Position numbers and translations under genes: made by a program. The notes under the pieces were generated by a model. It did not search any database. It saw only the letters and a list, made by a program, of their open reading frames with translations, and was not told the origin of the DNA. 64,000 nucleotides of DNA, taken from the NCBI RefSeq assembly GCF_900188085.1, contig NZ_FZOU01000011.1, forward strand, positions 1 to 64,000, read 5' to 3'. The stretch is from Granulicella rosea. GTDB lineage: Bacteria > Acidobacteriota > Terriglobia > Terriglobales > Acidobacteriaceae. Within the stretch, counting starts at the first letter, position 1, and every line of letters begins with the position of its first letter. Positions 33,859 through 62,195 of the stretch are shown piece after piece.

Positions 33859-33884
33859 AAGCAGATTCCCTGCGGGAATGACAA
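33859..33884 (+). repeat. ATTCCCTGCGGGAAT palindromic repeat, copy 1
   Basis: AAGCAGATTCCCTGCGGGAA then TGACAA. The core ATTCCC-TGC-GGGAAT is a small hairpin. Related copies are at 34998-35023 (degenerate) and, as an inverted pair, at 38261-38336. Confidence 0.65.
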
Positions 33885-36831: not shown

Positions 36832-36928
36832 CTGTCATCCTGAGCGTAGCGAGGGACCTGCTTTTCGCCTGGAGATGCGTCAATACTCCGGGCAAACAGC
36901 AGGTCCTTCGCTGCGCTCAGGATGACAG
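36832..36928. repeat. REP-like inverted pair (CCTGAGCG family)
   Basis: CTGTCATCCTGAGCGTAGCG at the left and CGCTGCGCTCAGGATGACAG at the right enclose GGGACCTGC...GCAGGTCC, forming a long imperfect hairpin around about 40 bases. Located between GH1 and glgA, on the same strand. Other copies at 26967, 42800, 43201, 53303, 55279, 57516 and 62102. Confidence 0.85.
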
Positions 36929-38260: not shown

Positions 38261-38336
38261 AGCAGATTCCCTTCGGGAATGACAAGCAAGGGAAGCATTG
38301 CCCTTTTACTTGTCATTTCCGGAGGGAATCTGCTTT
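38261..38336. repeat. ATTCCC-type palindromic repeat, inverted pair
   Basis: AGCAGATTCCCTTCGGGAAT at the left and ATTTCCGGAGGGAATCTGCT at the right, with GACAAG and CTTGTC adjoining the centre, make a near-perfect 26-base inverted repeat. Between glgA and the M13 peptidase gene; likely forms a strong hairpin after glgA. Confidence 0.75.
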
Positions 38337-38385: not shown

Positions 38386-40431
38386 ATGAATCCGCGCATC
38401 GCACTCCCGGCCTTCGCTCTTTGCCTCCTTGCACTTCCCCTCTGCGCCCAGACGGCGCCCGAGACGCACGGCGTCGCCGTCGCCAACATGGATAAGTCGG
38501 TGAAGCCGGGCGACGACTTCTATCGCTACGCCAACGGCGCATGGCTCGACAGGACGGTGATCCCGGCCGACCGCACCAGCATCGGCTCGTTCTCGCTGGT
38601 CGCCAACGTGACGGACAAGCGCGTGGCGGGCATCGTCGCCGAGGCGGCCGCGCACCCGGAGCGCAGCGCGGACGACAGGAAGATGGGCGACCTCTACAAG
38701 GCGTACATGGATGCCGCGGCGGTCGATGCGCGGGGACTTGCGCCCATCAAGCCGTATCTCGAGGCCATCGCCGCCATCAAGACCCAGAAGGAGCTGGCGC
38801 ACGCCCTGGGCCTGACTCTGCGCGCCGACGTCGACGCGCTGAACGCGACCAACTTCCACACCATGAATCTCTTCGGCGTGTGGGTCGCGCCGGGCTTCAA
38901 CGATCCGGACCACTACGCGCCGTACCTGATGCAGGGCGGGCTCTCGCTGCCCGACCAGGCGTACTACCTCACCGACTCGCCCCGCATGAAGACCGTGCGC
39001 GCCGCGCATGAGGCCGATATCGCCGCGCTGCTGAAGCTGGCCGGCTATACCGACACCGAGGCCCGCGCCGCGAAGGTTGTCGCGCTCGAGACCGCCATCG
39101 CGAAGACGCATACGCCGCTGGCCGAGAACGAGGATATCCACAAGGCGAACAACACCTGGACGATGGCCGACTTTCCCGCCAAGGCGCCGGGGCTGGACTG
39201 GGCGACGTACTTCAAGGCGGCGGGCCTCGACACGCAAAAGAGCTTCATCGTGTGGCAGCCCACGGCCTTCACGGGCGAAGCGGCGCTGGTGGCCGGGACC
39301 CCGCTCGATGTCTGGAAGGATTACCTCGCATTCCACCTGATCTACGCCAACGCCGGCGTCATGCCCGCGGCCTTCGCGAACCAGCGCTTCAGCTTCACCC
39401 AGGTGCTGACCGGCGCGCCGCAGCAGCGTCCGCGCGAGCAGCGCGCCGTGGCCTTCGTGAACGGCATGATGGGCGACGCCGTCGGCAAGGACTACGCGAA
39501 GCTCTACTTCTCGCCCGAGGAGAAGGCCAAGGTCCAGCAGCTTGTGCAGAACCTGATCGACGCCTTCCACGTCCGGCTGACGGAGCTGACCTGGATGGCG
39601 CCGGCGACCAAGGCCGAGGCGATCCGGAAGCTCGGCACCCTGAAGGTCTCGGTCGGATACCCGGATACGTGGCGCAGCTACGCCGGACTCGAGATCAAGG
39701 CCGACGACCTCTTCGGCGACGTCCAGCGCGCCGGCCTCTTCGACCTGCACTACGAGCTTTCACGCATCGGCAAGCCGGTCGACCGCAGCGAGTGGTGCAT
39801 GGAGCCGCAGACCGTGAACGCCGTGAACCTGCCGCTCGACAACGGGCTGAACTTTCCTGCCGCGATCCTGCAGCCGCCGTTCTACGACCCGAAGGCGCCG
39901 GACGCGTACAACTATGGCGCGATCGGATCGGTCATTGGGCACGAGATCTCGCATACGTTCGACAGCGAGGGCGCGGCCTTCGACTCCGAGGGCAGGGTCC
40001 GCAATTGGTGGACGCCCGAGGATCTGGCGCACTTCAACGCCTCCACCGCCGCGCTGGCCGCGCAGTACGACAAGTACCAGCTCTTTCCCGATGTGAACGT
40101 GAACGGCAAGCAGACGCTGGGAGAGAACATCGCCGACACGGCCGGCCTGACGGTCGCATACGACGCCTACCACGCGGCCTTGAAGGGAAAACCGGCGCCG
40201 GTCGTCGACGGCCTGACGGGCGATCAGCAGTTCTTCCTCGCCTTCGCGCAGAACTGGGGCACGAAGGCGCGCGAGGCGTCGCTGCGTCAGCAGGTCGCGA
40301 CCGACCCGCATGCGCCGGCGGAGTTCCGCGCAGCCACGGTCCGCAATCTGGACGCGTGGTATGCGGCCTTCCCGATTCAGCCGGCGAATAAGCTGTATCT
40401 CGCGCCCGCCGACCGCGTGCACATCTGGTAG
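38386..40431 (+). CDS. secreted M13-family metallopeptidase (PepO-like)
   Basis: 681 aa with signal peptide ALPAFALCLLALPLCAQ. Zinc site GHEISHTFDSEGAAFD (HExxH) and third ligand Glu in GENIADTAGLTVAYDAY. Also KPGDDFYRYANGAWLDRT and the C-terminal IQPANKLYLAPADRVHIW, normal for the neprilysin family. An extended -10, TGCTAGAAT, ends 7 bases before the ATG and there is no SD, so the mRNA is probably leaderless. Confidence 0.93.
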   Translation: MNPRIALPAFALCLLALPLCAQTAPETHGVAVANMDKSVKPGDDFYRYANGAWLDRTVIPADRTSIGSFSLVANVTDKRVAGIVAEAAAHPERSADDRKMGDLYKAYMDAAAVDARGLAPIKPYLEAIAAIKTQKELAHALGLTLRADVDALNATNFHTMNLFGVWVAPGFNDPDHYAPYLMQGGLSLPDQAYYLTDSPRMKTVRAAHEADIAALLKLAGYTDTEARAAKVVALETAIAKTHTPLAENEDIHKANNTWTMADFPAKAPGLDWATYFKAAGLDTQKSFIVWQPTAFTGEAALVAGTPLDVWKDYLAFHLIYANAGVMPAAFANQRFSFTQVLTGAPQQRPREQRAVAFVNGMMGDAVGKDYAKLYFSPEEKAKVQQLVQNLIDAFHVRLTELTWMAPATKAEAIRKLGTLKVSVGYPDTWRSYAGLEIKADDLFGDVQRAGLFDLHYELSRIGKPVDRSEWCMEPQTVNAVNLPLDNGLNFPAAILQPPFYDPKAPDAYNYGAIGSVIGHEISHTFDSEGAAFDSEGRVRNWWTPEDLAHFNASTAALAAQYDKYQLFPDVNVNGKQTLGENIADTAGLTVAYDAYHAALKGKPAPVVDGLTGDQQFFLAFAQNWGTKAREASLRQQVATDPHAPAEFRAATVRNLDAWYAAFPIQPANKLYLAPADRVHIW

Positions 40432-40457
40432 GTTGAACGAAAGCAAAGCGTACCTCA

Positions 40458-40510
40458 GCGGCTAAAGCCGCAGGACGAAGCCGCTTGGATGGCACGGCTG
40501 AAGCCGTGCC
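40458..40510. repeat. pair of small palindromes (GCGGCTAAAGCCGC type)
   Basis: GCGGCTAAAGCCGC (40458-40471) and GGCACGGCTGAAGCCGTGCC (40491-40510) are compact hairpins with 4-base loops. They follow the M13 gene and precede the CxxC gene; possible transcription end or an intergenic repeat family. Confidence 0.55.
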
Positions 40511-40600
40511 CTTAACAAAACGTTCTGGGAAGAGCCCGAATTTGCAGTGCGGAAGGCCATTCCCTGGACCCTGTTTCCCTGAGTCCTACTTCCTGTCTTT

Positions 40601-40936
40601 ATGCCCTTGACCATTGCCGCAATCCGCACCGGAACCGACCCCCAGGGCCCTCTGCCCGAGGGGTCGTTCCACCGCACGCTCGACGAGCAGATCGTCTGCC
40701 AGAAGTGCGACGCCACCTACAACCTCGTCGCGGACTACGAACAGTCGACGACGAAGTTCTTCGAGGAAGACTCGCGCCGCTACCTGCAGCTTCTGCGCAA
40801 GACCATCGCCATGGGACATATCCAGGGGCACAAGTTCAGCCACTTCGAGACCAACGGCGTGGTCGTCCAGGCGATCACAAAGTCGGACGGTCCGGTCGAG
40901 CTGGGCGCGAAGCCCCGGCGCGCAGGCGTAGAATAG
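40601..40936 (+). CDS. conserved small protein with CxxC, upstream of rimO
   Basis: 111 aa. Seen: SFHRTLDEQIVCQKCDATYN with a single CxxC, then a helical region LQLLRKTIAMGHIQGHKFS. No signal peptide. Not recognised as a named family. Its stop is 5 bases before the rimO start, so the two are likely coupled. The CxxC alone could be a metal or redox site but a partner pair is missing. Confidence 0.65.
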   Translation: MPLTIAAIRTGTDPQGPLPEGSFHRTLDEQIVCQKCDATYNLVADYEQSTTKFFEEDSRRYLQLLRKTIAMGHIQGHKFSHFETNGVVVQAITKSDGPVELGAKPRRAGVE

Positions 40937-40941
40937 AGAAT

Positions 40942-42762
40942 GTGACATCCACGCCCATTCTCGAAGCTCCCGTTCCTGTAGCGACCCGCCCCAAAGTCGG
41001 TTTTGTCTCGCTTGGCTGCCCCAAAAACCTCGTCGACTCCGAGGTGATGATGGGCATGCTCCACCACAACGGCGCGGAGCTGACCCCGCGCGCCGAGGAT
41101 GCCGAGATCATCGTCATCAACACGTGCAGTTTCATCGATTCGGCCAAGCAGGAGTCGGTGAACACGATCCTAGAGATGGTGCAGCACAAGACGCAGAACG
41201 GCGGCAAGGCCCAGCGCATCGTCGTGGCGGGCTGCCTGGTCGAGCGCTATCGGGACGAGATTCGCAAGAATATCCCGGAGGTCGATGCGGTCGTCGGCAC
41301 GGGCGAGCTTGAGGGCATCCTCGCCGCGGCGGGCCTGACGCCGAGCGGCCATGCGAACAACTCGCCGTTCACGATTCTGCCGCAGGGATTCTCGTCCGTC
41401 GGCGCCCAGCCCCAGATTGAAGCGCACATCCAGCATGATCTTTCGGTCATGAATCCGCCGCTGGTCGACGACACGACCGTGCACCGGGCGCTGGTTTCGC
41501 GTGCGCCCAGCGCCGTCTCGCAGCACTCGCGTCCGCTGGCCAATCCCGAGTCGGACGCTGAGGTTGCTCCGCAGCTTCGCATCTCCAGCGAAAGGTCGAT
41601 TCAGGCGGAGATCGCGAAGTCGCTCGCCGAGACGGGGACGACGCACGGCGAGGAGCCGCTGGCGCATGCAGGCGACCACGTCGCGCATGTCAGTCATCCG
41701 GACAAGCCCGCCATCAGCTACCGCGCCGAGGGCGATGCGCGCGAGCAGTCCGGGCGATTCTCGCGCGAGGCCTGGGACGGCGCGACGGCCGCGCTGCCCG
41801 ACTACCTCTACTCGGACGCGACGCCGCGCATCCTGACCACGCCGCGCGCGTCGGCCTACATCAAGATCGCCGAGGGCTGCGACCACCCCTGCACCTTCTG
41901 CATCATCCCGCAGTTGCGCGGCAAGTTCCGCTCGCGGCGCATGGGTTCGATCGTCGCCGAGGCCCAGAACCTGATCGCGCAGGGCGTGCGTGAGATTACG
42001 CTGATCGGCCAGGACACGACCTGCTACGGCGAAGACCTGGGCCTGAAGGACGGGCTTGCGCAGCTTCTGGACGCGCTCGCCGTGCTGCCCGGCCTGCGCT
42101 GGCTGCGCTTCCTTTACACCTATCCCAACAAGGTGACGACGCGCCTGCTCGAGACGATGGCGAAGCATGACACCATCGCCAAGTACCTGGACGTGCCACT
42201 GCAGCACGCCAGCCCCGCGGTGCTGAAGCGCATGAAGCGAGGCGGCAACGCGCAGATCTTCCTGGACCTGATCGCCAAGGCGCGGCGGATCGTGCCGGGC
42301 ATCGTGGTGCGCACCAGCTTCATCGTCGGCTTCCCCGGCGAGACCGAGGCCGACTTTGAGGAGCTGTGCGCCTTCGTCAAGGCAGCCGAGATCGACTGGC
42401 TGGGCGTCTTCACCTATTCGGACGAAGAGGGCGCGAAGGCCTTCGAGCTGGCCTCCGAACTTAAGGTTCCGAAGCGTACGATCGAAGCCCGCCGCCGCAA
42501 GCTGATGCGGATTCAGCAGAAGGTCAGCATGAAGTCCAAGGCCGCATGGGTTGGCCGCGAGATCGACCTGCTCGTCGAAGGCGAAAGCGAAGAGACCGAG
42601 CTGCTGTGGCAGGGCCGTACCCCGCTGCACGCGCCGGAGATCGACGGCAAGGTGCTCATCAACGACTTCGGGCCGCATGAAGAGCTGGTACCGGGAACGT
42701 TCTATCGGGCGGAGATTACCGAGTCGCATGACTACGATGTGGTGGCGCGGATCATCGAGTAG
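40942..42762 (+). CDS. rimO: ribosomal protein S12 methylthiotransferase with large insertion
   Basis: About 606 aa from GTG 40942. RimO adds a methylthio group to an Asp of S12 using two Fe-S clusters. Seen: GFVSLGCPKNLVDSE and NTCSFIDSAKQESV and VAGCLVERY (first cluster), then IAEGCDHPCTFCIIPQLRGK (radical-SAM CxxxCxxC), and C-terminal TRAM (ELLWQGRTPLHAPEIDG). Usual RimO is about 440-460 aa. The extra part is about 140 residues (roughly bases 41330-41790) between the N-terminal domain and radical-SAM core, lacking Cys and of mixed polar composition. Confidence 0.9.
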   Translation: MTSTPILEAPVPVATRPKVGFVSLGCPKNLVDSEVMMGMLHHNGAELTPRAEDAEIIVINTCSFIDSAKQESVNTILEMVQHKTQNGGKAQRIVVAGCLVERYRDEIRKNIPEVDAVVGTGELEGILAAAGLTPSGHANNSPFTILPQGFSSVGAQPQIEAHIQHDLSVMNPPLVDDTTVHRALVSRAPSAVSQHSRPLANPESDAEVAPQLRISSERSIQAEIAKSLAETGTTHGEEPLAHAGDHVAHVSHPDKPAISYRAEGDAREQSGRFSREAWDGATAALPDYLYSDATPRILTTPRASAYIKIAEGCDHPCTFCIIPQLRGKFRSRRMGSIVAEAQNLIAQGVREITLIGQDTTCYGEDLGLKDGLAQLLDALAVLPGLRWLRFLYTYPNKVTTRLLETMAKHDTIAKYLDVPLQHASPAVLKRMKRGGNAQIFLDLIAKARRIVPGIVVRTSFIVGFPGETEADFEELCAFVKAAEIDWLGVFTYSDEEGAKAFELASELKVPKRTIEARRRKLMRIQQKVSMKSKAAWVGREIDLLVEGESEETELLWQGRTPLHAPEIDGKVLINDFGPHEELVPGTFYRAEITESHDYDVVARIIE

Positions 42763-42799
42763 ACTGACTCGCTTGGGGTGTCTGCCTTGCTTTTTGGCT

Positions 42800-42829
42800 G
42801 TCATCCTTCGCGAAGCGGAGGATCTGCTT
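42800..42829 (+). repeat. left inverted repeat flanking the GIY-YIG gene
   Basis: Starts GTCATCCTTCGCGAAGCGGA and ends GGATCTGCTT. It is the exact reverse complement of 43201-43230 over all 30 bases; similarity extends weakly outwards. The core CTTCGCGAAG is itself a palindrome. Confidence 0.9.
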
Positions 42830-42882
42830 CTGTCTTTGCTTTGCCGTTGCCTTTGCTTCGACAGTCCCCTAACCTAACGCAC

Positions 42883-43197
42883 ATGCCACGCGAGCATCAC
42901 TACAGCGTCTACATTCTGGCGAGCCGCTCCCGCACGTTGTATATCGGAGTGACGAACGACCTCTCCGGCCGAGTCCGAGAGCATCGCGAAGGGAGGGCCG
43001 GAAGCTTTACGACACGCTATCAGCTCCATCGGCTCGTTTACTTTGAGCGGTTCCAGTACGTCAACAATGCGATTGCGCGTGAGAAATACTTGAAACACAT
43101 GACCAGAGCAGAAAAGATCGCCCTGATCGAGACGATGAACCCGACTTGGGAGGATTTGGAATCGCCGCTTCCCTCCAGAATCATCGCAGCTATTTGA
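42883..43197 (+). CDS. single-domain GIY-YIG nuclease
   Basis: 104 aa from ATG 42883. The GIY-YIG catalytic motif reads YSVYILASRSRTLYIGVTND, followed by the Arg of LSGRVREHREG and the Glu-containing helix NAIAREKYLKHMTRAEKIAL. This is the small stand-alone (YhbQ/UPF0213-like) type with no DNA-binding extension. It sits inside perfect 30-bp inverted repeats of a family dispersed over the window, suggesting the nuclease acts on or moves with that repeat. No clear SD. Confidence 0.85.
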   Translation: MPREHHYSVYILASRSRTLYIGVTNDLSGRVREHREGRAGSFTTRYQLHRLVYFERFQYVNNAIAREKYLKHMTRAEKIALIETMNPTWEDLESPLPSRIIAAI

Positions 43198-43200
43198 AGA

Positions 43201-43230
43201 AAGCAGATCCTCCGCTTCGCGAAGGATGAC
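43201..43230 (-). repeat. right inverted repeat flanking the GIY-YIG gene
   Basis: Starts AAGCAGATCCTCCGCTTCGC and ends GAAGGATGAC; exact reverse complement of 42800-42829. Begins 3 bases after the GIY-YIG stop and ends 24 bases before yacG. Confidence 0.9.
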
Positions 43231-43254
43231 AACTAAAAAGAAGAAGCAAAAACT

Positions 43255-43473
43255 ATGCCAGCACCCAAAGCACTCTTTTGCCCCACCTGCCGCAAGGTCG
43301 TCCTCGCCTCGAATGAGGAGTTTCCGTTCTGCTCCGACCGCTGCCGCCTGCTCGACCTGGGCAAGTGGGCGTCGGGCGGGTATGTGATCTCGTCGCCCAT
43401 CCACGACCCTGAGTTGCTGGACGAGCTGGAAGGTCTGCGCGATCGCGGCAAGAGCTCGAACAACGATGATTAG
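43255..43473 (+). CDS. yacG: DNA gyrase inhibitor YacG-like zinc protein
   Basis: 72 aa. Two Cys pairs, LFCPTCRKVV and FPFCSDRCRLLDLGKWASGG, form the YacG zinc site; the WASGGYVI ending is typical. In E. coli YacG binds GyrB and blocks gyrase. The last 8 bases overlap the pgpA start, so they are co-translated. Confidence 0.85.
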   Translation: MPAPKALFCPTCRKVVLASNEEFPFCSDRCRLLDLGKWASGGYVISSPIHDPELLDELEGLRDRGKSSNNDD

Positions 43474-43981
43474 CCACCAGAAGCAGGAGCGGCTGACCAC
43501 CTGGCCGAAGCAGCGCACCACCTGGGCGTGGGCGCTGGGGACGTTCTTCTCCGCGGGCCTGCTGCGGCCGGGGCCGGGCACCTACGGCTCGATCGCGGCC
43601 GTGCTGCTGTGGTTCGGCACGGGGCACGCCTTTCATCCGGCGCCGCTTGCGATGGCTGTTGGCACGGGCGTCGCGGCGCTGGCGGCGACGCTGATCGGCA
43701 TTCCCGCCGCGACCATCGTCGCGCGCGAGTCCGGCCGCGAAGACCCCGGCCATGTCGTAATCGACGAGGTCGCCGGGCAGCTCGTCGCGCTGATCGCGAT
43801 TCCCTGCGACTGGCGTCACGCGGCCGTCGGCCTGCTGCTCTTTCGACTCTTCGACATCTTCAAACCGCCGCCGATTCGCCAGCTCGAACGCCTGCCCGAG
43901 GGCACGGGCATCATGCTGGACGACGTGATGGCCGGTGTCTTCGCGCTGATCTGCGGACAGATTTTGCTGCGCTGGCTCTAA
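43466..43981 (+). CDS. pgpA: phosphatidylglycerophosphatase A
   Basis: 171 aa membrane enzyme that dephosphorylates phosphatidylglycerol phosphate. Seen: LGTFFSAGLLRPGPGTYGSI, catalytic EDPGHVVIDEVAGQLVAL, LFRLFDIFKPPPIRQLE and GIMLDDVMAGVFALI, all PgpA hallmarks. Four hydrophobic spans. Overlaps yacG by 8 bases. Confidence 0.93.
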   Translation: MISHQKQERLTTWPKQRTTWAWALGTFFSAGLLRPGPGTYGSIAAVLLWFGTGHAFHPAPLAMAVGTGVAALAATLIGIPAATIVARESGREDPGHVVIDEVAGQLVALIAIPCDWRHAAVGLLLFRLFDIFKPPPIRQLERLPEGTGIMLDDVMAGVFALICGQILLRWL

Positions 43982-43990
43982 GCAAAGGCA

Positions 43991-44211
43991 TAACACCGAT
44001 TTGCACCGATTGAACCGATCTCAAAGACAAATCATTGCTTTGAAGCGGATTACGTGGAGCTGCAAAGCAAGAACAAGCAACAGCAAAGGCAATGCGGGGG
44101 TCTCTCCACTGCGCTGCGCTTCGGTCGAGATGACGAGCACTTGCCCCGTTGCCAGATACCCAAAGGCAATTTGCTCTCAGAGATCGGTTTAATCGGTGGA
44201 GATCGGTGTTG
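43991..44211. repeat. ACCGAT-type inverted repeat, long copy with cargo-free centre
   Basis: The left arm (43991-44022) reads AACACCGATTTGCACCGATT then GAACCGATCTC; the right arm (44180-44211) is its near reverse complement (GAGATCGGTTTAATCGGTGG...). Each arm has three CCGAT boxes. The 157-base centre contains a CTGCGCTGCGCTTCGGTCGA motif near 44113 but no gene. The compact relative is at 30029-30091. Confidence 0.7.
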
Positions 44212-44218
44212 AGCCTTC

Positions 44219-45247
44219 TTATAGAACCACCGCGTACAGTGCATCGCGCGTCGCCAGGATCGTTCGCCCGTCGGGATGGAACGCCAGTCCGACGAGGTTG
44301 CTGCCGGCGAGCACCAGCGACGCCTCGCCGCCGGGCGTGATCCGCACAATGCCGCGTTCGCCACCGAGGCTGGCGGCGATATAGAGGTTATCCTCGCGGT
44401 CAAAGGCGAGTCCCTGGGGACGGCCGAGGCCCTGGAAGAAGATCGTCGCCGTGCCGTTCCGGTCGATGGCATGGACGACTTGGTTCGACGAGGTCGTCGG
44501 CGCCGTGACGTAGAGCGTACCCGTGGACGAAAACGCCAGGTGATAGGCCGCGACCGAGGGTTCGAGCGTGGCGAAGACGAAGGTCTCTCGGTCGGCGATG
44601 GTGTCGTCGCCCTCGAGGTACCGGCCGATCTTGAAGATCGTGCCGGAGCGGTCGCCGACGTAGAGGCAGCCGTCCGGCCCGAAGGCCAGCCCCGACGCGA
44701 TCCCCAGACCCTCGGCGTAGGTGTAGACGACGCCTTCGGGAGAGACGCGGTAGACCGTGCCCTCGGCGCGCGAGCTGACATAGAGGTAGCCATCCGGCCC
44801 GAAGGCGAGGCCGGTCGGATTCAGCAGCTCGCGGACGAAGGGCCGCGCGCGGCCGGTCGAATCGATCTTGAAGATGGGGACGGGCGTCTGCGTGCCGCGC
44901 GCGCCGGAGACGGTGGAGAAGATATTCCCGGCTGCGTCGATCGCCGGATTCGCGACCGGGTGCAGATTCTCCGTCAGCGGCGTCGCGACGGCGAGCGGGA
45001 GACGGTTGCTCTGCGCGCCGTTCGCCTGCACCACCACATCGCCGAAGAGCAGACCCTCCGGCACGCGCAACCCCATCCGCGTGGGCCGCGCCAGTGTGAC
45101 CACCGCCGGTCGCCCGCCGATATCCGCGGCGGCGTGGCTGCCCAGGCGTTCGCCGTGGACCTCGATCTCCGCGCCCGGCATGGCGGCTGTGGGAGAGACG
45201 TGAGTGAGGTGCGGCGCCGCGGGAGCTTTTTTCGAAAATGCCATCAT
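44219..45247 (-). CDS. IPT/TIG plus NHL-type beta-propeller protein
   Basis: 342 aa from ATG 45247 with AGG upstream; the frame extends further without similarity. Residues about 10-85 resemble an IPT/TIG domain (LTHVSPTAAMPGAEIEVHGE). From residue about 110 a six-bladed propeller of SMP-30/NHL type is formed by repeats such as LNPTGLAFGPDGYLYVSSRA, GIASGLAFGPDGCLYVGDRS and RPQGLAFDREDNLYIAAS. No signal peptide. May bind or hydrolyse a lactone or scaffold proteins; unknown. Confidence 0.78.
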   Translation of the reverse strand: MMAFSKKAPAAPHLTHVSPTAAMPGAEIEVHGERLGSHAAADIGGRPAVVTLARPTRMGLRVPEGLLFGDVVVQANGAQSNRLPLAVATPLTENLHPVANPAIDAAGNIFSTVSGARGTQTPVPIFKIDSTGRARPFVRELLNPTGLAFGPDGYLYVSSRAEGTVYRVSPEGVVYTYAEGLGIASGLAFGPDGCLYVGDRSGTIFKIGRYLEGDDTIADRETFVFATLEPSVAAYHLAFSSTGTLYVTAPTTSSNQVVHAIDRNGTATIFFQGLGRPQGLAFDREDNLYIAASLGGERGIVRITPGGEASLVLAGSNLVGLAFHPDGRTILATRDALYAVVL

Positions 45248-45363
45248 GTCCAAGCCTATGCCGTACGCACCAGCCCCGCAACTCCCGGCTCGCGGAAATC
45301 CACTGGCGGTTTCCAGCGGCGCGGGATATAACCAGACCACACCCAGCCGTTCAGGAGAAGACC

Positions 45364-45789
45364 TTGTCGACGCAAAGCAACGCCAACCACGCCATGTGGG
45401 ACCCAATGTGGCACTTCAGCACGCTTCCGATGTCCCTGATCCTCGTTATCTGGTCCGGCGTCTCGCTCTTTCGTCACCACGACGCGCTGCATGCCGAACT
45501 GCTGCTCTTCGCGCTCACGCTCATCATGGCGGTAGCCGCCATTCGCGGCTACGGGCTGAAGAATCAGGATCGCATCATCCGGCTGGAGGAGCAGTTGCGG
45601 CTGCGCCGGCTGATGCCCGCGGAGCCGGAGGTGGTCGATGCGCTGAATCTGACTCAGCTCATCGGACTGCGGTTCGCAGCGGACGCGGAGGCGCCGGCGC
45701 TGGCTCGACGCGCGGTCAAGGAGAACCTCGACCGCAAGGCGATCAAGGCGGCGGTGGTGGTCTGGCGGCCGGACAACCACCGGGTCTAG
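45364..45789 (+). CDS. DUF6526-like membrane protein
   Basis: 141 aa from TTG 45364 with AGGAGA 5 bases upstream. Two hydrophobic spans (LPMSLILVIWSGVSLFR and ELLLFALTLIMAVAAIRGYG) are followed by RLEEQLRLRRLMPAEP and the ending KAAVVVWRPDNHRV. Divergent from and partly upstream of the NHL gene. Function unknown. Confidence 0.72.
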   Translation: MSTQSNANHAMWDPMWHFSTLPMSLILVIWSGVSLFRHHDALHAELLLFALTLIMAVAAIRGYGLKNQDRIIRLEEQLRLRRLMPAEPEVVDALNLTQLIGLRFAADAEAPALARRAVKENLDRKAIKAAVVVWRPDNHRV

Positions 45790-45849
45790 CGGCTGGAGAT
45801 CGAATTCATTGCCGCATTCTGACTTGGTGTAGCATCCTATTCCAAGATC

Positions 45850-47109
45850 ATGATTGCTGAAATCATCGCCGCCGGCTCCGAGATGCTCACGCCGTTCCGG
45901 CAGGATACGAACTCGCTCTACCTCACCGCCGGGCTGAACGATCTGGGCGTGACGGTTGCCTTCAAGACCATCGTCGGCGACAGCCTGGAGCACTTGACCG
46001 GCGCCGCCGTGAACGCGCTGCGCCGCGCCGACATCGTCATCTTCTCGGGCGGCCTTGGCCCGACGGAAGACGACCTGACCCGCGAGGCCGCGGCCGCCGC
46101 GCTCGGGATCGAGCTGCACCCCGACCCCGGCATGATCGCCGCGCTCTACAAGCGGTTCGCCGAGCGGCGCATGACCATGACCCCGAACAATACGAAGCAG
46201 GCCAATGTGCTGGACGGCGCGAAGCTGCTCGAAAACCGGAACGGCACCGCGCCGGGCCAGTTTCTCGAGACGCGCTTCGCGGGCAAGCGCCGCATCGTCG
46301 TCCTGCTGCCCGGCCCGCCGAAGGAGCTGAAACCGCTCTTCGACGAACAGGTGAAGCCACGTCTTGCGGCCACGCTGCCGCCTGCTTTTATTGCGAAGAG
46401 ACAGCTTCGCATGGCGCTCATACCGGAGTCACTGGTCGACTCGCGCACCGCGCCCATCTACAAGACTTACGCCGACGTCGAGACGACCATTCTCGCCGGT
46501 TCGGGCGAGATTCAGCTCAATTTCATCGTCGCCAAACCGACCCTGGCGGAGGCGCAGGCCGTCGTCGACGAGCTGGCCGCGAAGGTCGAAGACGAGATGG
46601 ACGAGGACATCTTCTCCTCGCATGGCGAATCGCTCGAAGAGGTCGTGCTGCTGAACCTGGGCATGCGCCACCTGACGCTGGCCGCGGCCGAAAGCTGCAC
46701 CGGCGGTACCTTCGCCGAACGGCTCACGGCGATTCCGAACAGCTCGCGCAGCTTCGTCGGCGGCGTGGTGGCTTACACGCCGGAGCTGAAGACGCTCTTC
46801 GTCGACGTGCCCGCGGAGATGCTGGCTGCCGAAGGCGCCATCAGCGAGGCTGTCGCGGGAGCTTTGGCCGAAGGCATCCGGCGGAAGACAGGGGCGGATG
46901 TCGGCATCGGCATCACGGGGCTTGCCGGGCCGGGCGGCGGCGTGGGGCCGGACGAGGGCAAGGCCATCGGGCTGGTCTATATCGGGTTGGCGGATGCGGC
47001 GGGAACGGCGGTGAAAGAGGTCAAGATCACCGGCGACCGCGAGCGCGTGCGCTGGTGGGCGAGCCAGCATGCGCTGGAGATGGTCCGGCGGCGGCTGTTG
47101 CAGGGATAA
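45850..47109 (+). CDS. cinA: CinA-family nicotinamide-nucleotide amidase
   Basis: 419 aa two-domain protein. N-terminal MoaB/MogA-like COG1058 domain: IIAAGSEMLTPFRQDTNSLY, VIFSGGLGPTEDDLTREA and LLPGPPKELKPLFDE. C-terminal PncC deamidase: LAAAESCTGGTFAERLTAIP and GIGITGLAGPGGG. Salvages NMN and is induced with competence genes in some bacteria. The window also has dprA and comM. Confidence 0.95.
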   Translation: MIAEIIAAGSEMLTPFRQDTNSLYLTAGLNDLGVTVAFKTIVGDSLEHLTGAAVNALRRADIVIFSGGLGPTEDDLTREAAAAALGIELHPDPGMIAALYKRFAERRMTMTPNNTKQANVLDGAKLLENRNGTAPGQFLETRFAGKRRIVVLLPGPPKELKPLFDEQVKPRLAATLPPAFIAKRQLRMALIPESLVDSRTAPIYKTYADVETTILAGSGEIQLNFIVAKPTLAEAQAVVDELAAKVEDEMDEDIFSSHGESLEEVVLLNLGMRHLTLAAAESCTGGTFAERLTAIPNSSRSFVGGVVAYTPELKTLFVDVPAEMLAAEGAISEAVAGALAEGIRRKTGADVGIGITGLAGPGGGVGPDEGKAIGLVYIGLADAAGTAVKEVKITGDRERVRWWASQHALEMVRRRLLQG

Positions 47110-53302: not shown

Positions 53303-53405
53303 CTGTCATCTTGAGCGAAGCGCAGCGAAGTCGAAAGACCTGCTTCCTGGGATCGCCAAAAGAACAAAAGCAAAAGCAGGTCCTTCGCTGCGCTCAGGAT
53401 GACAG
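53303..53405. repeat. REP-like inverted pair between ribD and ribE
   Basis: CTGTCATCTTGAGCGAAGCG at the left and GCTGCGCTCAGGATGACAG at the right, with GACCTGCTT and AGCAGGTC inside, form an imperfect hairpin of about 30-base arms. Same family as at 36832. Confidence 0.85.
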
Positions 53406-62101: not shown

Positions 62102-62195
62102 GTCGTCCTGAACGTAGTGAAGGATCTGCTTTTTCTTCGGAGTGGAATAGCACTCACAGGCAAACAGCAGGTCCTTCGCTTGGCTCAGGATGACA
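62102..62195. repeat. REP-like inverted pair after sdaA
   Basis: GTCGTCCTGAACGTAGTGAA then GGATCTGCT at the left; AGCAGGTCCTTCGCTTGGCT then CAGGATGAC at the right. Imperfect 29-base arms. Lies between convergent genes. Confidence 0.8.

Follow-up and report, generated by a model that had tools for sequence, protein, structure and literature searches.

The Ssn proteins of Neisseria are reportedly a GIY-YIG family that cuts single-stranded DNA at dispersed NTS repeats and has many homologs (the study is said to have appeared in Nature Communications in 2025), and they are said to restrict or steer how such DNA is taken up and recombined. For RAYT genes, the article on them (Nunvar 2010, PMC2817692) states that two inverted REPs are invariably present at their flanks. 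CGTC REPs, including TGTC variants, were defined in a 2013 survey in which Neisseria CGTC-1 corresponds to dRS3 (Di Nocera 2013, PMC3733652). In the accessible portion of that survey these REPs are apparently without a dedicated transposase, the enzyme, if any, that serves CGTC-tagged REPs is left open, the term GIY-YIG is absent, and some of the species named are also found here. A literature search, with subscription papers mostly outside it, returned no work that joins GIY-YIG with REP, RAYT, dRS3 or CGTC REP in the present sense.

The window analyzed here is a stretch of 64,000 nucleotides of the Granulicella rosea genome (contig NZ_FZOU01000011.1, positions 1 to 64,000). It contains a gene for a GIY-YIG nuclease of 104 residues (42883–43197, forward strand; from the ATG at 42883 to the TGA at 43197) between two units of sequence TGTCATCCTTCGCGAAGCGGAGGATCTGCTT that are inverted to each other. 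The left unit (42799–42829, forward strand) comprises a TGTC tag, a 9-bp hairpin with the arms ATCCTTCGC and GCGGAGGAT around a GAA loop, and a CTGC tail, and it points to the gene. The right unit (43201–43231, reverse strand) has the same hairpin, points to the gene from the opposite side, begins 3 bp past the stop codon and has a terminator-like look. All 30 bases of 42800–42829 are complementary to 43201–43230, and the inverted repeat extends to arms of 40 nucleotides (42790–42829, forward, and 43201–43240, reverse) that match at 95%; the inverted arms and the stand-alone nuclease gene reported in a first-pass annotation of the window are thus both confirmed. Its 23-nucleotide core occurs in the window at these two places only, at up to 3 mismatches, and in none of 100 dinucleotide shuffles. 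Folded as single-stranded DNA, the unit of TGTC tag, 9-bp stem, GAA loop and CTGC tail has an energy of −6.1 kcal/mol (z −2.1). The gene and its two units form a cassette of ∼430–450 bp between an upstream frame whose stop is at 42762 and a downstream gene at 43255, which we take, after the earlier annotation, to be rimO and yacG.

The encoded protein matches the Pfam GIY-YIG family at 1.7e-12 and has no second Pfam domain, whereas PADLOC, PHROGs and NCBIfam gave weak or no matches. It carries VYI at residues 9–11, YIG at 20–22, Arg30, His34, Glu67, and Asn86; Tyr10, Tyr20, Gly22, Arg30, His34, and Asn86 are invariant in 30 homologs, and Glu67 is present in at least 90% of them. In an AF2 model (pLDDT 86.3, pTM 0.80), residue 72 closes the helix of residues 60–72, which carries Glu67. 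The closest solved structures are the UPF0213 entries 1zg2 and 1ywl, and the protein is similar to the UPF0213/YhbQ type in fold and size, but yhbQ of Escherichia coli is distant, matches over 31 residues only and has no such units within ∼300 bp. COG2827 and UPF0213 are not mentioned in the available part of PMC1564403. In contrast to GIY-YIG homing endonucleases, no intron or additional DNA-binding module was found; no Rfam family matched within 40000–46000, and the protein has one Pfam domain.

In its features, the nuclease appears to resemble most closely the Ssn single-strand nucleases as reported. It shares with them a single small GIY-YIG domain in which the catalytic residues are present, as well as repeats of the same class, both near the gene and dispersed in the genome (we take cognate to mean of the same stem class). 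Homology can be followed to Neisseria in two steps: the window protein aligns together with that of another locus (L243), which matches a Neisseria gonorrhoeae protein at 49%, and the N. gonorrhoeae homolog, presumably Ssn itself, is flanked by CGTCATTCCC units, which are the same kind of unit. The present system differs from Ssn in having other repeat classes, with four pairs in one genome. If what is reported of Ssn is right, the link between repeat and partner is already known for Neisseria, and what may be new are the other repeat classes, the presence of several pairs per genome, the residue 72–73 code and the replacement of pairs, each described below.

The unit shares with the CGTC/TGTC REPs, as described in the accessible portion of the survey (PMC3733652), an unpaired tag (TGTC here; CGTC, TGTC or CCTC there) and a stem of 9 bp that starts with AT (8–9 bp starting AT:AT there). 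It differs in having a 3-nucleotide loop and a CTGC tail instead of a loop of 4–5 nucleotides and a CCA tail, and is therefore regarded as similar to, but not a member of, the published families. Further differences are the long loop inserts in many relatives and the candidate enzyme that is flanked here. With the RAYT/GTAG REP system, as set out in the available part of PMC2817692, the locus shares a gene between two inverted repeats, many copies elsewhere and a paired diversity of gene and repeat. However, the enzyme is a GIY-YIG nuclease, the only domain shown by Pfam, and not an HUH/Y1 tyrosine transposase, the tag is TGTC and not GTAG, and in relatives the units can also be direct (18 of 63 genes). 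The proposal in the first-pass annotation that this is a RAYT/REP layout, with REP-like repeats and a GIY-YIG nuclease in the place of the RAYT, is in agreement with the pairing and flanking counts that follow. The observation is real and general, and the system is RAYT-like in layout and pairing, though not necessarily in transposition.

The genome (5.29 Mb) contains five matches to GIY-YIG, of which four are small; the fifth is a frame of 741 residues on contig C3 that was taken for UvrC by its length alone. Each of the four small genes is flanked on both sides by a different repeat class: TCCTTC for the window gene, TTCCC for C11:509511, TCTCGA for C6:33262, and TCCTGA for C11:512508. The last of these (L067; G000:C11:512460-512705) is apparently frame-broken near its start, and yet TCCTGAG copies are the commonest. 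There are 206 of them in the genome, as compared with 93 of the TTCCC class, which has a 6-bp stem, 2 of a strict TCTCGACC pattern and, for the TCCTTC class, 28 sites at no more than one mismatch including the two of the cassette, or 30 by a looser pattern; the counts are not strictly comparable because the patterns differ in looseness. Reversed-pattern controls gave no matches in this genome. When folded as DNA, the TCTCGA-class unit is not stable (z +1.15) and the TCCTGA unit is weak (z −0.36). Related repeats had been claimed at other places in the window, and repeat-like units are indeed present, but their stem classes are not that of the cassette, and most are of a class found beside one of the genome's other small nucleases. 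They include one unit of the GTCATCTCGACC class of G000:C6:33262 (44099–44134), two of the GTCATTCCC class of G000:C11:509511 (33864–33882 and 38265–38283), and three of the GTCATCCTGAG class of the apparently broken G000:C11:512508 (36902–36926, 53379–53403, and 62170–62194, the last facing a weaker copy at 62102); these six are on the reverse strand, and a further repeat-like unit lies at 53305.

Homologs are present in 62 of 100 family genomes searched. The 100 stretches that were fetched around homologous places, mostly the better-scoring ones and with few that have internal stops, hold 104 genes from 54 genomes. A unit, defined as GTCA, a 4-nucleotide stem, a loop and the complement of the stem within ∼300 bp of the gene, lies beside 97 of these genes and on both sides of 63. 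Control ORFs of at least 200 residues in the same stretches have a unit beside 143 of 524 and on both sides of 18 (Fisher p = 5e-42 for the excess of two-sided nuclease genes). Where there are units on both sides, the closest two are in inverted orientation at 45 of the 63 genes and in direct orientation at the other 18. With a stricter definition requiring a 5-nucleotide stem, which was later relaxed to 4 nucleotides, units were found beside 50 of the 104 genes and on both sides of 26, against both sides in 0.5% of 553 control ORFs. In two genomes (L131 and L132; G018:C20 and G027:C11), two tandem nuclease genes lie ∼600 bp apart and share the repeat classes around them. In five others (L072, L076, L091, L142, and L159; G049, G028, G074, G094, and G029, respectively), the GIY-YIG frame continues without a stop into a second protein, which looks from its sequence to be enoyl-CoA hydratase-like; L091, L142, and L159 are at one site, and L072 and L076 are at another, along with the unfused L075.

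Nuclease and repeat class go together. At 61 genes both the left and the right unit belong to a common class, and in 59 of these the two are of the same stem class (mean 20.1 and maximum 30 in 2000 shuffles). In 14 genomes with several such genes, the class agrees in 32 of 34 comparisons within a gene, but in only 21 of 60 ordered pairs when different genes are compared. The stem classes TCCT, TCCC, TTCC, TTCT, TGCT, and TCTC each have a matching complement. Because the definition of the unit itself demands complementarity, covariation was assessed separately on 64 segments chosen by left-right similarity and a GTCAT anchor; the complement of the segment's own stem follows in 58 of them, as compared with 20% for the stem word of other loci. 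Stem class also follows the nuclease tree, with 22 class changes for 82 genes, five long in-frame ORFs having been left out (shuffled mean 41.3, minimum 35 of 300), and, in an enlarged set of 136 genes, 37 changes (shuffled mean 69.7, minimum 62 of 200). Rows with tied classes are excluded from the class counts on the tree and from those for single residues and residue pairs given below. The first-pass annotation had read the perfect identity of the two units as a mark of the active parent copy. Agreement in class between left and right also holds elsewhere, at the 59 of 61 genes, and identity is not evidence of activity; it points to a recent common origin or to homogenization.

In the first set of loci, residues 68 and 72 stood out against stem class. 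Residue 68, for which Thr or Ser had gone with TTCC stems, was rejected as a determinant (0 of 8 in 54 further loci). Residue 72 is glycine in 38 of 42 loci of the first set with stems ending in T and in 10 of 40 with stems ending in C, and in 28 of 33 and 3 of 21, respectively, of the 54 further loci; phylogenetically independent pairs for this residue are too few to separate the correlation from descent. In a set of 208 genes, thinned by identity to 173, the pair of residues 72–73 predicts the class correctly in 107 of 165 leave-one-out cases from which near relatives were excluded (mean 50.5 and maximum 64 in 100 shuffles). It is the best predictor among the adjacent pairs tried; 37 others, taken at every second offset, gave 33–67 correct. 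KHF or KHM goes with TCCTTC in 7 of 8 cases, KHW with TTCCC in 7 of 7, KDW with ..CG[CT] in 10 of 11, and KRW with TCTCGA or TCCCGA in 18 of 23, whereas KGW is looser and common to several classes (TCCTGA in 53 of 84). One KHF nuclease (G177) is flanked by the TTCCC class. His72 and Met73 are, from these correlations, the candidate specificity residues of the window protein.

Across 398 genomes of the family, the TCCTTC class is absent or rare in most and reaches at least 10 copies in 14. In six of these 14 (G000, G101, G398, G074 with 25 copies, G258, and G300), a KH[FM] nuclease is flanked by it. G408 has a broken nuclease copy only, and no matching nuclease was found in the other seven (G395, G003, G344, G113, G349, G121, and G363) among the better-scoring homologs and the part of the lower-scoring ones that were read, some fragments in G003 and G363 being unreadable at residue 72. 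G139, which is outside the list of 14, has both a KH[FM] nuclease and the repeat (10 copies). Of the best-scoring 20 places, which were read irrespective of any repeats, five encode KH[FM] nucleases with the TCCTTC class at their flanks (G000, G300, G258, G398, and G101), and their genomes contain 10–71 copies; G074 and G139 were found otherwise, and L192 and L244 are apparently, by size and counts, from the same genomes as G300 and G258. One set of genomes was picked mainly for having the repeat, and another 20, with close homologs, for having few or none (0–2 copies; G177 is among them), and the match between gene and repeat in these selected genomes is therefore no blind test. The nuclease thus goes with the repeats where it is found, but a repeat population can persist after its partner has ceased to be detectable, or expand with no such partner. 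The first-pass annotation had expected the repeats to be scarcer in genomes lacking the gene; the rarity of the class in most of the 398 agrees with this, and the repeat-rich genomes with a broken nuclease or none do not.

The junction of rimO and yacG was compared in relatives by gap length. In 29 fetched relatives with yacG, the 1.5 kb upstream of it contains rimO in the same orientation in 11 and in the opposite one in 1, and no rimO was found there in 17. In none of the 11 with the same gene order is there a nuclease gene between the two, and gaps of only 19, 57, and 83 bp occur; the comparison suggested by the first-pass annotation thus finds the gene absent from this junction in all of them. 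For 52 of the 104 genes, the flanking sequence resembles that of no other genome in the set. Both flanks are shared between genomes in 33 gene pairs, which comprise 28 genes at nine sites. In 21 of these pairs the nucleases are 46–59% identical, where cross-genome pairs in general have a median of 52% and a 95th percentile of 61%; in the other 12 they are 62–76% identical, which looks like some vertical descent alongside. The stem class is not shared in 12 of the 33 pairs, one of which has no class on one side. The nine sites hold nucleases of different branches, and five have differing repeat classes or mixtures; at one, TTCT nucleases are present in three genomes (L100, L122, and L137) and TCCT nucleases in two (L119 and L146). 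The idea that nucleases stay at a site while the repeats change class was rejected, because two nucleases from one shared site mostly differ as much as any other two do. The sequences suggest instead that whole nuclease-repeat pairs have been replaced or that favored sites have been re-used.

We think it likely that the small GIY-YIG nuclease is sequence-specific and has as its targets the TGTC-tagged hairpins on either side of its gene and elsewhere along the chromosome. By analogy with Ssn, it would probably bind and read the hairpin as single-stranded DNA, on the lagging strand or in incoming DNA, and probably nick it near the TGTC tag. Residues 72–73, at the end of the helix with the catalytic glutamate, would help to set which stem is accepted, and in this proposal several pairs could thereby exist side by side in a cell. 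Repair after a cut at one unit would open the way to copying or gene conversion involving other units. In this manner the repeats would multiply, the two units around a gene would stay similar, and one nuclease-repeat pair could take the place of another at a given site. Such an activity could explain why TGTCATCC... repeats are so abundant in this bacterial family.

A role in the service of the host, in which a domesticated enzyme treats the repeats as marks by which, for instance, single-stranded DNA uptake and recombination are limited or directed, as is reported for Ssn in Neisseria, and selection rather than the enzyme maintains the repeats, is possible but doubtful. The wide occurrence of homologs (62 of 100 family genomes), the CGTCATTCCC units around the Neisseria homolog and the 12 syntenic pairs of 62–76% identity, long kept at one site, are consistent with it, whereas the uneven distribution of the gene, its broken copies and the repeat populations that lack a partner suggest turnover, and the 21 syntenic pairs of 46–59% identity are no closer than most pairs across genomes. 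The 12 more similar pairs, which look like vertical descent, also argue against a full mobile element, an IS-like or homing cassette in which the gene and both units move together and of which the window copy is recent. We consider such an element unlikely. Its movement would account for the lack of the gene at the rimO-yacG junction in all 11 relatives with that gene order, the perfect 30-base arms, the 52 genes without flank similarity, and the different branches and classes at shared sites, but there is one gene per class in this genome, and GIY-YIG enzymes, which hydrolyze DNA without a covalent link, are not known to join strands. Without such a link, conversion driven by nicks, or a function in DNA uptake, is more likely than strand transfer of the RAYT kind. 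It is very improbable that the gene is a passenger, lying merely among repeats that something else spreads or that act as terminators. The repeats are common (206 TCCTGAG copies here), the right unit looks terminator-like, and repeat-rich genomes without a matching nuclease exist, but the pairing of classes within genomes (32 of 34 versus 21 of 60), the correlation with residues 72–73, the tree signal and the control ORF counts would all be unexpected for a passenger.

The layout recurs outside the Acidobacteriota, in Proteobacteria (including Neisseria), Chloroflexi, Verrucomicrobia, Bacteroidetes, Cyanobacteria, and others. Of 80 named loci examined, the 16 non-acidobacterial ones (Chloroflexi, Planctomycetes, Patescibacteria, Ignavibacteria, Verrucomicrobia, Balneolaceae, Croceitalea, and Rickettsiales) have a unit upstream in 15, downstream in 14, and on both sides in 13. 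The 64 acidobacterial ones, some of which are cut by contig ends, have it upstream in 56, downstream in 32, and on both sides in 30. In 11 records chosen from 34 of a plasmid collection, tagged units are present on at least one side in all 11 and on both in 9, with Spirosoma doubtful; the flanked nucleases include those of N. gonorrhoeae, Azospirillum lipoferum, Sinorhizobium meliloti, and Novosphingobium aromaticivorans. In many bacteria such enzymes are accompanied by a version of the repeat particular to each, and the system of repeat and partner thus looks widespread and not due to chance. On balance, the sequences favor small GIY-YIG nucleases as the dedicated enzymes of the CGTC/TGTC REP superfamily across bacteria, which would read their hairpins through residues 72–73, with several pairs per genome and with whole pairs swapping at shared sites. 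For the question left in the part of the 2013 survey available (PMC3733652), the data point to one enzyme family with a matching layout in many phyla and a specificity code that can be tested directly; such nucleases could become programmable single-strand cutters. On plasmid AZO_p3 of A. lipoferum (L342), the nuclease and its repeats lie between sufB and sufC, and on plasmid p1 of Planktothrix agardhii (L346) they lie between an MmeI-like restriction gene and drmA of DISARM. Two Sinorhizobium loci (L343 and L353) share the nuclease gene and differ in the number of upstream repeat pairs; one strain has a stack of additional pairs, together with the DNA between them, that the other lacks.
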